NCBI GenBank assembly: GCA_025041175.1
Contig: JAKCFJ010000004.1
Coordinates: 744,001 to 808,000 of the forward strand
Source: Halobacteriales archaeon YIM A00010
Lineage (GTDB): Archaea; Halobacteriota; Halobacteria; Halobacteriales; Haloarculaceae
Direction: 5' to 3'
DNA length: 64,000 nt
In this document: positions 20,905 through 33,321 of the stretch, piece after piece
How positions within the stretch are numbered: the stretch's first letter is position 1
Layout of the letters: each line of letters begins with the position of its first letter
Notes under the pieces: generated by a model
The model's input: the letters and a program-made list of their open reading frames with translations, nothing else
The model's database searches: none
What the model was told of the DNA's origin: nothing
Made by a program: the position numbers and the translations under genes

Positions 20905-21661
20905 ACATCTCGGTAATCATTCGACCGCAAATAAACACTGGGGCACGGTACCGAGACACTGCATAGGAACAGATCGACGAGCGAAGATGACTGGATTTTC
21001 GCCGTGGTTCCTTCGAGCCAACCGGAGATCCGAAGCGAAGATCATCATTAAAATTTATTGGGAACTGATGAGTGTTCCTATTGTGACTCGATCGATTCCC
21101 TATTATCGGCAGTATCGTCGATTACAAATATAAATATCTAAAGTGATATTTTGGGTGATGATATCATTACTGACTGATGTTGTAGGTCGATTCGATGCCG
21201 GAAACCGGGAATGAGTTCTTCACCTCTACTTCCACATTGATATCTGACGTTCCGATGAACGACTTTAAATCGGCGTTGAAGGAGGTCGAGAAACGTTTTC
21301 GACTTCGGCGAAACCATCCGCTCCGTCAAATATTTCTACTAGAATCATAATAGTGAATAAAGCAGAAATGGCGTCTATACTGGCTATACTCGTCGAGAAT
21401 CGAGGAATAGAGATCGAAACAACACTCACATGTTCTGGCTTTCGCTTCCAGCGCGAAGCGAGTGGAACCTCCCGAGCCGTCGAACGTATCTGTCTACTAA
21501 TGAAAACATAATACTATCTAGATATAAAGGTGTTGTTGTTATCCGAAATTCTATATTATGTTTTCCAGGCATCTATCATTGGTGATGTGTGTGGTTTATT
21601 GTGGGAACCGATCTATGCCTTCTTACAAAAGTTTATACGGAGTGCGAGTTCATGAGTGAGT
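20905..21661. other. Long AT-rich non-coding region
   Basis: About 750 bases between divergent genes, with AT-rich islands at about 21040-21180, 21330-21370 and 21490-21570, unlike the surrounding GC-rich DNA. I see no convincing protein or tRNA. A 63-codon frame on the minus strand (21138-21329) has no recognisable features. The region holds the promoters of both flanking genes and could host a small RNA or be remnant DNA. Confidence 0.4.
21631..21638 (+). promoter_or_regulatory. TATA-like box for BKACE gene
   Basis: GTTTATAC centred about 27 bases before ATG 21662. This favours ATG 21662 over the in-frame GTG at 21656. Confidence 0.45.
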
Positions 21662-22510
21662 ATGGCGTACGAAGGCTATAGTGATTACTTCGAGGAGAAG
21701 TTGATCATCTCAGTGGCGACGACAGGCGGCTTTCACGGCAAGGAAGCGAACCCGAACCTTCCGGAACAACCCGAAGAGATAGTCGAAGACGTCGCCGCGT
21801 GCAGGGAGGCCGGTACATCGATCGTCCACCTTCATGCTCGCGACGAGGATGGCAATCCGACCAAGGCGGTCGAACGATTCCAGGAACTCCGGGACCGTCT
21901 GCAAGAGCGCGTTCCGGACATGATCGTCAACCTCACGACGGGCGGACCACAGTCGCGTGCTGAACGTCTGGCACCTGTCATCGAAACCGACCCGGCTCCC
22001 GACTTAGCGACCATCGACGTCGGGCCGATAAGCACTGGTCAGACGGGTATTGCGATGAATCCCCGCGAGCAAAACGAGGAGTACGCCCGGCAGATGGCGG
22101 ACAGGGGGATCAAACCGGAACTGGAGGTGTTCAACCAGGGTCATTTCACCGAAGTGGAGAACCTCGCCGAGAAAAACCTCGTCGATGCGCCCTACTGGTG
22201 TACGTTGATCCTCGGCATGCAAGCGTCGACACCTCCCCATCCCCGCAACCTCCTCAACTACGTGGACAACCTTCCCGACGAATCCCACTGGCAGTGTCTC
22301 GCTATCGGGAAACACCAGCTTTCCCTGACGACGATGGCGATACTCCTCGGTGGTCACGTCCGTGTCGGTATGGAAGACAACGTCTACTACCGAAAAGGGG
22401 AACTTGCCGAGAGCAACGCACAACTCGTCCGACGAGCGGCACGGATCGCGGACGAACTGGAACGGGAGGTCGCAAGTCCCAGCGAGACCCGGGACATTCT
22501 CGATCTGTAA
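21662..22510 (+). CDS. BKACE / DUF849 beta-keto acid cleavage enzyme
   Basis: 282 residues with a TIM-barrel pattern. The zinc ligands of the family are seen in IVHLHARD (His56 and His58), TTGG and the VRVGMEDN segment near 240 carrying the conserved Glu. BKACE enzymes condense a beta-keto acid with acetyl-CoA to give acetoacetate and a new acyl-CoA; the best known member acts on 3-keto-5-aminohexanoate. It stands alone between a long AT-rich region and a hairpin array, with an aldehyde dehydrogenase following. The particular keto acid is unknown. Confidence 0.85.
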   Translation: MAYEGYSDYFEEKLIISVATTGGFHGKEANPNLPEQPEEIVEDVAACREAGTSIVHLHARDEDGNPTKAVERFQELRDRLQERVPDMIVNLTTGGPQSRAERLAPVIETDPAPDLATIDVGPISTGQTGIAMNPREQNEEYARQMADRGIKPELEVFNQGHFTEVENLAEKNLVDAPYWCTLILGMQASTPPHPRNLLNYVDNLPDESHWQCLAIGKHQLSLTTMAILLGGHVRVGMEDNVYYRKGELAESNAQLVRRAARIADELEREVASPSETRDILDL

Positions 22511-22590
22511 CTGCCTCCTGTGGTAGGGGCTGTTCCGCTTTGTGAGACGTTCTGTGTCCCTCTTCGACCGACCAGATCGTTCTCCGCTGG

Positions 22591-22731
22591 TCGTCGGCCT
22601 GTGGCCGACTGCTTGAGGCACGGAGTGCCTCTCTGTCGCCGGCCCGCGGCCGGCTGCCCGAGACGCAAAGCGTCTCGCTGTCGCCAGAATCGGACGGTTC
22701 TGGCTGCTAACCGGAACTCGGAGAGTTCCGG
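22591..22731. repeat. Array of six hairpins (three double-hairpin units)
   Basis: Six perfect or near-perfect stems lie head to tail: 22594-22608, 22615-22631, 22638-22654, 22660-22676, 22683-22704 and 22711-22731, with mostly 3-base loops. Stem sequences all differ, but the linkers are conserved and alternate: CTGTCG (GTCG in the first) before the odd hairpins and CTGCTT, TGCCC or TGCTAA before the even ones. This gives three tandem copies of a two-hairpin module. The same module, with the CTGCTTG linker, occurs twice at 37.56-37.70 kb. It occupies the gap between the BKACE and aldehyde dehydrogenase genes. Confidence 0.8.
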
Positions 22732-22769
22732 TGATGTTGCCACCGGTATCGTTCGATCACGAACGAATG

Positions 22770-22775: not shown

Positions 22776-22800
22776 TCATTCTACCATGTCCTGTGATAGT

Positions 22801-24279
22801 ATGGCACGACGACAACAGCCTGATTTGACGGACGATACGGACTGGCCGCTGTACATCGGTGGCGAGTGGACGGTCCCCTCCGATGCCGGAACGCTCGAAG
22901 TGCAGAACCCGGCCACACAGGAGGTGTTCGCCGAGGCACCCGCCGCGACGACGGACACCCTCGAGGAGGCGTTCGAGGCCGCCCAAGCGGCACAGGCAGA
23001 GTGGGCGGAGACGCCGCCACAGGAACGCGCGGGCGTCGTTTCGAGCGTTCTTGAAGCGATACACGAGCGTCACGACGAACTCGTCGACCTGATCGTCAGG
23101 GACACTGGCGGCACCTACCTCAAGGCCGAGACGGCGATCCACATCGCCGAAGGGCACACACAGTACGCGACGAGTTACCCGTTCCAAGACGGGGGAAACC
23201 ACGAGAAGTCGACGATTCCGGGCAAGGAGAACATCGTCGAACGGGAACCGGTCGGCGTCGTCGCCGCTATCGTCCCGTGGAACTTCCCGTTCAACCTCAC
23301 GATGCGGATCGTTCCCCACGCCATCGCGCTGGGCAACAGCGTCGTTCTGAAACCATCACCGGATACGCCCCTCATCGGGGGTGTTGCGATCGCCTCCCTC
23401 TTCGAGGAGGCTGGGCTACCGGACGGCGTTCTCAACGTCGTGATCGGCGAGGACGAGGAGATCGGTGACTACGTCTCGGGCCACCCGGTTCCCGATGTGA
23501 TGTCGTTCACCGGATCAATCGAAATCGGCAAGCGCGTTGGCCGTCGCGCCGCCGAACAGCTCACAGACCCGGCGCTGGAACTCGGGGGCAACAACCCGCA
23601 CATCGTGACCGACGACGCTGACCTAGAGTACGCAGTCGACGCCGCGACGTTCGCGACGTTCGTCCACTCGGGTCAGGTTTGTATCTCCATCAACCGCCAC
23701 ATCGTCCAGGAATCGGTCTACGACGACTACGTGAATGCACTCACCGAGCGGGCGAAGAACGTCCCGTACGGCGACCCGCGGAAGGAAGGAACCGTCGTCG
23801 GGCCCGTCATCAATGAGACCCAGCGGGACAAGATTCTCGACCTCGTCGAACGGACGACCGACGCCGGTGCGACCCTCGAGACCGGCGGCGACCACGAGGG
23901 TCTGGTGATCGAACCGACGGTCCTCTCGGATGTGACCAACAACATGGAACTAGCTTGTAACGAACACTTCGGACCAGTCGCACCCGTCATTCCGTTCTCG
24001 ACAGACGAGGAGGCAGTCGAAATCGCCAACGACACCCGAATGGGACTCTCCGGATCGGTCCATTCCACGGATCTCGATCGCGCCCGACGGATCGCCGATC
24101 GGATCGAGACCGGTACGATCCACATCAACGACCAGCCAATTAACGACGAACCGCACGTTCCCTTCGGTGGCGTCAAGGATTCGGGCATGGGTCGGTACAA
24201 CGCCGAGGCGCTCATGCGGAAACTCACCCGGACGAAGTGGATCTCGATCCAACACGAGCAACGCGAGTTCCCGTTTTGA
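22801..24279 (+). CDS. NAD(P)-dependent aldehyde dehydrogenase 1
   Basis: 492 residues. Catalytic residues are in place: Asn161 in PWNFPFN, Glu260 in LELGGNNP and Cys294 in GQVCISINRH. It oxidises an aldehyde to an acid. The GQVCISINR form of the active site resembles the benzaldehyde/vanillin dehydrogenase and lactaldehyde group more than betaine-aldehyde dehydrogenase, so an aromatic aldehyde is possible, not shown. The gene follows the hairpin array and stands opposite the peptide-type transporter operon (tail-to-tail, 160 bases). Confidence 0.88.
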   Translation: MARRQQPDLTDDTDWPLYIGGEWTVPSDAGTLEVQNPATQEVFAEAPAATTDTLEEAFEAAQAAQAEWAETPPQERAGVVSSVLEAIHERHDELVDLIVRDTGGTYLKAETAIHIAEGHTQYATSYPFQDGGNHEKSTIPGKENIVEREPVGVVAAIVPWNFPFNLTMRIVPHAIALGNSVVLKPSPDTPLIGGVAIASLFEEAGLPDGVLNVVIGEDEEIGDYVSGHPVPDVMSFTGSIEIGKRVGRRAAEQLTDPALELGGNNPHIVTDDADLEYAVDAATFATFVHSGQVCISINRHIVQESVYDDYVNALTERAKNVPYGDPRKEGTVVGPVINETQRDKILDLVERTTDAGATLETGGDHEGLVIEPTVLSDVTNNMELACNEHFGPVAPVIPFSTDEEAVEIANDTRMGLSGSVHSTDLDRARRIADRIETGTIHINDQPINDEPHVPFGGVKDSGMGRYNAEALMRKLTRTKWISIQHEQREFPF

Positions 24280-31435: not shown

Positions 31436-32188
31436 TTCGATTTAGATGGAGAGACCGCTATCGTCACTGGAGCGGCCCAGGGGTTCGGACGCGCCATCGC
31501 AGAGCGTCTCGGAGAGGCTGGCAGCAACATCGTGATCGCCGACATCCAGGTCGAGAAAGCCGAGAACACGGCCGAGGAACTCCGCGAGGAGGACGTCGCG
31601 GTCGAAGTTGTCGACTGCGACGTGACCGATCTGGCGTCCGCTCAAGCCCTGATCGACGCGACGGTCGAGCGATTTGGGGGCGTCGAGATTCTCGTCAACA
31701 ACGCCGGTGGAGCCACGTCCGATCGTTTCACCGACCTCGATTTCGACGCGTGGTTCGACGGCCTCGCACTCAATCTCTCGGGACCATTCAACTGTTCGAA
31801 GGCAGTGGCACCGGAGATGCGCCAGCACGGCGACGGCCGGATCGTCAACATCTCCTCGATGGCGGGCCGGAACGTCACTGTCCACGGGGACGCCAGCTAT
31901 ACTGCCGCGAAGTGGGGGCTGATCGGTCTCTCGAAGCACACTGCCCGTGACCTCGGTCCCGACGTCAGGGTGAACGCGCTCTGTCCCGGCGGCGGTCCGA
32001 ACGGGCCGCTGGGCCGTGGTGTCAAGGGAGAGGACGTTGCCAACGGTGTCTTGTTTCTCGTGTCCGACCTCGCTGACTACGTCAACGCGACGGTGCTCGA
32101 AGTCGACGGCGGTGGCCACGTGAACGCGCGACCGGACTACCTCGACAAACCACCCGAGGAGTGGCCCGACTTCTTGCAGGACCAGTAG
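31433..32188 (+). CDS. Short-chain dehydrogenase/reductase (classical SDR)
   Basis: 251 residues. The cofactor motif TGAAQGFG (12-19), Asp in the second strand (IADIQ, favouring NAD), NNAG, and the Ser and Tyr-x-x-x-Lys pair in NISSMAG and YTAAKWG are all present. It interconverts an alcohol and ketone. It lies 100 bases before a zinc alcohol dehydrogenase on the same strand, and the two may oxidise alcohols imported by the adjacent transporter. The C-terminal HVNARPDYLDKPPEEWPDF extension is longer than usual. Confidence 0.85.
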   Translation: MFDLDGETAIVTGAAQGFGRAIAERLGEAGSNIVIADIQVEKAENTAEELREEDVAVEVVDCDVTDLASAQALIDATVERFGGVEILVNNAGGATSDRFTDLDFDAWFDGLALNLSGPFNCSKAVAPEMRQHGDGRIVNISSMAGRNVTVHGDASYTAAKWGLIGLSKHTARDLGPDVRVNALCPGGGPNGPLGRGVKGEDVANGVLFLVSDLADYVNATVLEVDGGGHVNARPDYLDKPPEEWPDFLQDQ

Positions 32189-32289
32189 TACGTTCGGCCG
32201 AAGCGGGAACAACTTGGGCTACGACCTTCTTGTCGGATCTAATTACAATAATCAGTACATTTAATAAGTGGCAGGGAGAGGTGCCGAGC

Positions 32290-33321
32290 ATGAAAGCCGC
32301 GCAGTTTTACGGCGTAGAGGACATGATAGTCGAAGACGTCGACGAGCCGTCGCCCGACAGCGGTGAGATACTCGTCGATGTCGCAGCCTGTGGGATCTGT
32401 GGTTCGGATCTCCATTTCTACGAGCACGGAGTCCACGAGAACGCGGAGTATCCCGTGACGCTCGGCCACGAGGTCGGTGGTACCGTCGTCGAAACTGGTT
32501 CAGATATCGACATCGAGGTCGGGACCGACGTCGTCCTCAGCCCGCACACCCCGTGTATGGAGTGTTGGTGCTGTGAGGAAGGCCTGTACAACCTGTGTCG
32601 CAACCTGAACGCGACATCGGCCCGTCCAGGTGGGTACGCGGAGAAGGTGGTAGAGCGCGCGGCGAACGCGATTCCCCTCCCCGACGGCGTCTCGCCCGAA
32701 GACGCGGCGATCGCCCAACCGGTTGCCGTCGGTCTCCACGCGGTCCGCCAGTCACCGCTGGGCATCGGTGATAGCGCGGCGGTCATCGGGGCCGGTCCGA
32801 TCGGACTCGGTGCGGTCCGCTTCGCGAAGTCGGCGGGTGCCGGGCCGGTCTACGTCTCCGAGCCACAAGCGTCTCGCCGGTCGGTCGCAGCGGACTTCGG
32901 GGCGGACATCGTCATCGATCCGAGCGAGGAAGACCCGGTCGAGCGGATTCACGACGAGACCGGAACTGGCGTCGACGTCGCTTTCGAGGCGGTCGGTCAC
33001 GAGACGACGTTCAACCAGGCAATCGAGACGACGAAGGCCAACGGCCACACCATGGTGATCGGGGTGTTCGGTGGAGCGGCGGACATATCGCCCCAGAGCC
33101 TCGTCCGTCACCAGCGGTCGGTGTCGGGGTCGACGTCACACCAACTCGGACCGGAGGTTACCAAGGAGTACAATGTGGTGTTTCGACAACTCGAGAGCGG
33201 CGAACTCGACACCGACCAGTATGTGACCTCGCGGATCAGCCTCGACGACGTCGTCGAGAAAGGATTCGAAACGCTCCTCGACGAAGACAGCGAAGAACGC
33301 AAGATCCTCGTCTGCCCGTAA
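32290..33321 (+). CDS. Zinc-dependent alcohol dehydrogenase 1 (MDR family)
   Basis: 343 residues from ATG 32290, with a TATA-like TTTAATAA at about 32259-32266. The catalytic zinc site is seen in CGICGSD (Cys34, Cys37) and GHE (His60, Glu61), the structural zinc cysteines in CMECWCCEEGLYNLC, and the Rossmann motif in VIGAGPIGLGAV. It resembles threonine or polyol dehydrogenases. It ends GFETLLDEDSEERKILVCP, a useful reference for the interrupted C-terminus of paralogue 2 at 37625-38707. Confidence 0.87.
   Translation: MKAAQFYGVEDMIVEDVDEPSPDSGEILVDVAACGICGSDLHFYEHGVHENAEYPVTLGHEVGGTVVETGSDIDIEVGTDVVLSPHTPCMECWCCEEGLYNLCRNLNATSARPGGYAEKVVERAANAIPLPDGVSPEDAAIAQPVAVGLHAVRQSPLGIGDSAAVIGAGPIGLGAVRFAKSAGAGPVYVSEPQASRRSVAADFGADIVIDPSEEDPVERIHDETGTGVDVAFEAVGHETTFNQAIETTKANGHTMVIGVFGGAADISPQSLVRHQRSVSGSTSHQLGPEVTKEYNVVFRQLESGELDTDQYVTSRISLDDVVEKGFETLLDEDSEERKILVCP

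Follow-up and report, generated by a model that had tools for sequence, protein, structure and literature searches.

The array lies at positions 22591-22736 of the window, by which we mean the whole stretch of 64,000 nucleotides of haloarchaeal DNA analysed here. It is located between a BKACE family gene and an aldehyde dehydrogenase gene, both given as context only, and two further units of the same kind are found at 37.6 kb, one of them inside a Zn-dependent alcohol dehydrogenase (ADH) gene. The features are as follows, with R1 and R2 denoting the covariance models for type I and type II modules.

21656..22510, + strand: BKACE family gene (PF05853, 2.4e-91), upstream neighbour of the array, context only.
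22591..22635, + strand: module 1, type I, 45 bp (R1, 66.0 bits, C4:766587-766637 = window 22587-22637); TC, hairpin A 22593-22609, linker TGCTT, hairpin B 22615-22631, TCTG.
22636..22680, + strand: module 2, type I, 45 bp (R1, 67.5 bits, window 22632-22682); TC, hairpin A 22638-22654, linker TGCC, hairpin B 22659-22677 (8 bp), CTG.
22681..22736, + strand: module 3, type II, 56 bp (R2, 78.9 bits, window 22677-22738); TC, hairpin A 22683-22704 (GCCAGAA stem, 8-nt loop), linker TGCTA, hairpin B 22710-22732 (10 bp), GATG.
22786..24279, + strand: aldehyde dehydrogenase gene (PF00171, 6.6e-160), downstream neighbour of the array, context only.
37558..37602, - strand: module 5, type I, solitary, downstream of the ADH gene (R1, 65.0 bits; hairpins 37562-37600).
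37625..38707, - strand: Zn-dependent ADH gene (Pfam ADH_N and ADH_zinc_N), carrying module 4 in frame.
37665..37709, + strand: module 4, type I, in the 3' end of the ADH gene (R1, 54.9 bits; hairpins 37667-37705).

An earlier note on this DNA had described six hairpins arranged as three tandem double-hairpin modules, and all six were confirmed in the window sequence at 22593-22732. Folding of the array as DNA returns exactly these six hairpins at -50.1 kcal/mol, compared with -29.5 ± 2.7 kcal/mol in shuffled sequences (n = 200; z = -7.6; 0 of 200 shuffles as good), and folding as RNA gives z = -5.9. The two units at 37.6 kb that the note had counted to reach five modules with one grammar are also real, one on the minus and one on the plus strand. 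When both covariance models were run over the whole window, no module beyond these five was found, and an Rfam scan of the window gave 0 matches above the gathering score.

All five modules align to one unit grammar, YG^TC - hairpin A - TGC(TT, CC or TA) - hairpin B - (TC, GC or GA)TG, where ^ marks the insertion point. The stems of type I are 7 bp long, with RYCGRNC in A and GAGGNNC or CGAGNNNC in B; those of type II are mostly 9-10 bp, with RCCAGAANNC in A and ACCAGAANNC or ACCGGAACTC in B, and mixed forms of the two types occur. The statement that the stems share no sequence was wrong, as they are drawn from a small vocabulary whose outer bases are conserved; variation, with compensation, falls in the 2-3 pairs at the tip and in the loop. 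The alternating linkers that had been proposed are indeed conserved, as TGTC and TGC(TT, CC or TA) around one double-hairpin unit, but the first odd hairpin is preceded by CTGGTC and not by CTGTCG. In general, the double hairpin is the unit: nearly every A hairpin has a B hairpin behind it, whether perfect or decayed, there is almost no A without B, and no credible longer element with A and B set apart was found in the sequence examined.

Pairing was first scored in aligned modules that had been picked for Watson-Crick stems. In the type I alignment (26 modules), 10 of the 14 stem pairs had changed on both sides; in that of type II (18 modules), this held for 11 of 20, and in each alignment the covariation score was above all 500 shuffles. 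Because these sets had been picked for paired stems, the count was repeated with anchors only and no pairing requirement. In the A stems of both types, 604 of 630 pairs were Watson-Crick, and the remainder comprised 11 G-T, 6 A-C and 9 other combinations; the B stems of type I, which have a weaker anchor, were noisier (496/630). At position 2 of the type I A stem, C-G was found 51 times and T-A 46 times, with the intermediates T-G (4) and C-A (1). Comparison of orthologous loci gave a mixed picture of the stems: the two copies at one tnpB site (L082 and L006) have the same stems and differ in the loop alone, and at the site in a multicopy gene the A stems differ among species (L012 vs L090).

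The loops are also restricted. Among 242 loops of 3 nt, the closing pair is C-G in 239, and 165 have the sequence GNA or TNC, against an expectation of 12.5%. The C(GNA)G motif forms a very stable DNA mini-hairpin of the d(GCGAAGC) type. Hairpins outside modules that have a C-G-closed 3-nt loop also favour GNA or TNC (90/155), although this background may itself include decayed modules. Many other perfect palindromes with 3-nt loops that do not follow the module grammar are present in the window's genome, for example CAAGAGCTTCGCTCTTG (L012:9680-10100). Stable hairpins have been discussed previously (PMC10527192). Because wobble pairs are few (11 G-T against 6 A-C) and the triloops are C-G-closed in the DNA manner, the pairing and loop statistics point to DNA hairpins, rather than RNA, as the acting form. 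Of the readings put forward in the earlier note, that of a replicating palindromic element is strongly supported by the empty and filled sites and the class-wide dispersal described below; structure is kept by compensation, with the pattern favouring DNA over RNA.

The genome-wide covariance search that had been suggested for the modules returned many further copies, both in the window's genome and in other Halobacteria. In the window's genome, R1 gives 103 matches, 69 of them at 50 bits or above, and R2 gives about 51 distinct places at 50 bits or above among the matches listed; types I and II together amount to at least 120 strong copies. R1 matches 174 of 194 Halobacteria genomes (58 of 65 genera) and R2 matches 97 of 116 (42 of 46 genera). 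Across the phylum, the strong matches all fall within the same order, and outside it only 7 weak matches (E at least 5e-6) were obtained in about 240 genomes. Viral contigs contained no exact match to the type I or type II core pattern. In one Halorubrum-like genome (G014), double-hairpin modules are found inside a repeated intergenic element of ~290 bp, GTGGCGCGTGC...GCACGCGCGAGG ... GGCTGGGGAGGCGTGAGG, with copies at L191:5782-6058, L192:6491-6782, L193:6398-6682 and L190:7969-8093.

Filled and empty sites could be compared at about ten loci, and they define net insertions of 45, 51 or 57 bp located 3' of a YG dinucleotide. One case is a multicopy gene family on the main chromosome (C1), in which 5 of 23 members are filled and 18 are empty at one shared point; the filled form CTGG TG^TC...GA TG^TCGG corresponds to the empty form CTGG TG^TCGG, a net gain of 51 bp. 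On the tree of the family the filled members lie scattered, and a different B hairpin is present in one of them; gene conversion, instead of repeated insertion, may have spread the module here. This family has about 24 divergent copies on C1 (75-84% DNA identity), encodes a small CxxC-containing protein (examples: L137:9311-9934, - strand; L012:8732-9692) and is also multicopy in genomes G003 and G005. Further empty sites were obtained by local flank comparison at L140, L107, L058, L180/L083 and L183; that of L140 belongs to a type I module in intergenic DNA and has a left-flank identity of 96%. Among the clean sites in these comparisons, one lies in an enolase-superfamily gene and others lie in tnpB genes. 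The tnpB site mentioned above is filled in two congeneric genomes (G000 and G002). One tnpB gene carries four modules (L020:9465-11175), and the tnpB genes of L021 and L177 carry inserts too; such genes look like preferred or tolerated targets.

Another recurrent target is the right-end palindrome of IS1341, CCGCGCCGTTTACGGCGCGGAGGATGTCA, whose sequence differs from that of the module. Type I modules are located at the tip of this palindrome, in the form CCGCGCCG^TC...TCTG^TTTACGGCGCGG, and the empty form in L148 reads CCTCGCCG^TTTACGGCGAGG. Two otherwise equal modules (C1:930631 and C1:1734950) are related by a loop flip between TTC and GAA. The empty and filled sites, along with the class-wide dispersal, strongly support the conclusion that the element is mobile DNA, and the array in the window is three side-by-side copies of this interspersed double-hairpin unit of 45-57 bp. 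On the other hand, some filled sites (the 961-bp family and the IS1341 ends) may reflect gene conversion or carriage with the host IS and not repeated insertion.

The edges of the insertion are precise. Measured from YG to YG, the net length is 45 bp in 69 of 129 copies and a multiple of three in 96 of the 129. Type I singletons with CG on the left have TG on the right in 16 of 17 cases, and three type I singletons have TG on the left and CG on the right. The filled IS1341 sites have CG/TG, CG/CG or TG/CG flanks, and never TG/TG. Because of this asymmetry and the mixture of flanks at IS1341, the YG of type I is supplied once by the target and usually once by the element, with no simple target duplication; a strict 2-bp duplication for all copies is not supported by type I modules at CG targets. 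For type II, the flanks are TG/TG, CCG/CCG or CG/CG, which would also fit a 2-3-bp target duplication as in a classical MITE. Covariation of the linker with the right end, as in the guide and cleavage pairs of IS608, was examined and followed no consistent rule. Neighbouring units of an array have a TG junction in common, a pattern that would follow from new copies landing at the border of existing ones.

Insertions are also found within coding genes. Module 4 lies antisense and in frame in the ADH gene, where the alignment shows that it adds 15 residues near the C terminus in comparison with the paralogue at 32161-33321 and three homologues. The two paralogous Zn-dependent dehydrogenases (32161-33321 and 37625-38707) have about 50% identity and lie 5 kb apart in the window. 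Eight Pfam-supported genes carry modules, namely those of ADH, PEP carboxylase, GH3, two AMP-binding enzymes, a P-type ATPase, an LD-carboxypeptidase and an enolase-superfamily dipeptide epimerase, and in all of them the Pfam domains are otherwise intact. In all 8 the module is antisense to the gene and is translated in one and the same frame (GAC in frame), which yields peptides like SEEQRSSGNRTQSGD. Compared with solved structures, the insert of the dipeptide epimerase is exactly 15 residues and that of PEP carboxylase about 48, and these extra residues correspond to the module or modules; the triple array of the latter gene is missing in 15 homologues, from six congeners and nine other genomes. 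If all six combinations of orientation and frame were equally open, 8 of 8 in one combination would have a probability of about (1/6)^7, but they are not strictly so, and the in-frame count itself selects for open frames; the value is thus a guide and not a test. The bias in orientation and frame is evident, and it suggests selection for persistence: insertions in genes would persist when read in the sole orientation and frame that gives a hydrophilic segment of 15-19 residues. New protein segments would arise in this way in core enzymes such as PEP carboxylase, and haloarchaeal protein and structure annotation should expect them.

It is likely, from all these observations, that the array consists of three copies, next to one another, of a very small, non-coding mobile element, widespread in Halobacteria, with the form TC-A-TGCxx-B-xxTG, which spreads as folded DNA. 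Its insertion, its unit boundaries and its dispersal are established by the sequence comparisons. In the proposed mechanism, the element would insert just 3' of YG, usually TG, and would normally bring its own TG at the right end. Once a new copy enters the TG junction of an old copy, a tandem array would form, probably by re-insertion rather than recombination. The need to act as single-stranded or cruciform DNA would preserve the pairing of the element, with each hairpin closed by C-G around a GNA triloop (TNC on the other strand). Copying may proceed by single-strand transposition in trans or by template switching during replication, through YG microhomology at the hairpins, and these two routes appear about equally likely. 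No mobiliser is named here, since several genomes that hold modules have no Y1 transposase, none of the Y1 genes inspected is flanked by modules and A is almost never found without B. It is tentatively conceivable that a new route, either a non-Y1 single-strand activity in trans or hairpin-driven template switching, spreads these exceptionally small elements as folded double hairpins across the class, and that they repeatedly donate in-frame hydrophilic segments of 15-19 residues to housekeeping enzymes of halophiles.

Four other explanations were weighed. Spread could be enzyme-free, in which case forks would stall at the hairpins and a nascent 3' YG end would switch to the TG beside another module, copy it and return. 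The two-base YG microhomology, the CG/TG and TG/CG mixtures at one site, the insertions at the IS1341 palindrome tip, the loop flips and the copy-rich genomes without Y1 transposase are all consistent with this route; the length and boundaries of the inserts are nevertheless too exact and uniform for ordinary template switching (with the 45-bp length the commonest case), and we regard it as doubtful. Alternatively, the unit could be like a classical MITE, with a DDE transposase moving it and leaving a 2-bp (sometimes 3-bp) target duplication; the hairpins would then be mere internal palindromes. The type II ends, TC(A/G)CCAGAA...TTCTGG(T)GA, are inverted repeats and their TG/TG or CCG/CCG flanks at empty sites agree with such a duplication, but the type I ends are not inverted repeats, the right TG at CG targets does not fit, and neither a longer element with such ends nor a parent IS was found in the sequence examined; a MITE is thus an unlikely source.

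Mobilisation of REP-like elements by a Y1 (HUH) transposase (RAYT or IS200/IS605 type) that would act in trans and cut 3' of YG on one strand was also considered. A short conserved tag lies 5' of each hairpin (TGTC, TGCY), insertion is site-specific 3' of a dinucleotide, the right TG is borne by the element, the hairpins are tandem, and Y1_Tnp genes are present in G000 and most Halorubrum-like genomes. However, the stem sequence is not conserved as it is in REPs, and Y1_Tnp is absent from G014, G197, G025 and G027, which have about 23-29 type I matches each, and from G002, all of which carry modules; the Y1 loci of G000 were inspected and none is flanked by modules. Copy-rich genomes of this kind rule out RAYT or Y1 as an obligatory partner in general, and REP-like movement is considered quite improbable. 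The modules are not IS605 ends either, given that the matches close to Y1 are a tnpB-gene insert and other or decayed hairpins, and that the IS1341 ends are another palindrome. Finally, a structured RNA, or a transcript-stability or termination element under RNA-level selection, would explain the good RNA fold and the compensatory changes, but G-U is scarce relative to A-C, modules lie antisense within coding genes, orthologues and paralogues have empty sites and Rfam gives no match, so this reading is very improbable.

No prior description of haloarchaeal double-hairpin repeats was found in the literature searched, outside subscription journals. On the reading favoured here, mobile DNA of this kind would be abundant in an entire archaeal class, with no description in Rfam or that literature, and would offer a ready system for studying how enzyme-less, hairpin-only elements, such as yeast GC clusters, double-hairpin elements, RPEs and SMRs, move.

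Among known systems, REP/BIME sequences with RAYT have a short tag 5' of the hairpin, high copy number and runs of units in common with the modules (PMC3733652); no haloarchaeon is named in the main text of this survey of REP families. The tags differ, however (TGTC/TGCY in modules vs GTAG or CGTC in REPs), module stems vary where REPs have a sequence-conserved palindrome, the modules are direct tandem pairs and not inverted ones, and a Y1 transposase is not always in the genome. PATEs and terminal-only IS605 remnants are likewise haloarchaeal, palindromic, about 50 bp long and without a transposase (PMC3119063), but the IS1341 ends in L195 and L196 are a different palindrome from the module, which targets such ends. 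The SMR-A and SMR-B elements of Haloquadratum walsbyi are also haloarchaeal and transposase-free, with an enigmatic mobilisation, and the near-terminal palindromes of both IS605-type elements and PATEs serve as insertion sites for SMR-A (PMC3119063), much as type I modules sit in the IS1341 right-end palindrome. Unlike the modules, with 45-57 bp and variable stems, SMRs measure 80-110 bp (about 110 bp for SMR-A), carry inverted repeats at their termini, prominent ones in SMR-A, and are >95% identical to others of their type (PMC3119063).

In Rickettsia palindromic elements (RPE), as in the modules, palindromic repeats enter unrelated metabolic genes without loss of frame, and the peptide that they encode is tolerated (PMC10969869). 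RPEs are set apart by size, being about 150 bp long, and are bacterial, whereas the modules have two tandem hairpins, are archaeal, lie mostly outside genes (as judged from about 0.94 Mb of stretches, mostly chosen around matches and hence biased), form tandem arrays and have a YG insertion point. The GC clusters of yeast mitochondria (GC42 and others) are, by analogy only, comparable in being short, GC-rich and palindromic, with no enzyme of their own and short flanking repeats; AG or ACT repeats (2-3 bp) flank them, their units merge and shuffle, and their mobiliser is unknown (PMC4478555). The double-hairpin elements of Allomyces, cited in PMC2800124, are by the same analogy two-hairpin mobile units with no enzyme of their own. 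Both are mitochondrial and apparently unrelated to the modules in sequence, and these sources report neither a class-wide distribution nor a C(GNA)G rule for them. We file the element as a new variety among short palindromic mobile elements and not as a member of RPE, GC clusters, SMR, REP or PATE; by functional analogy, its closest counterparts would be the yeast mitochondrial GC clusters, the Allomyces double-hairpin elements and RPE.
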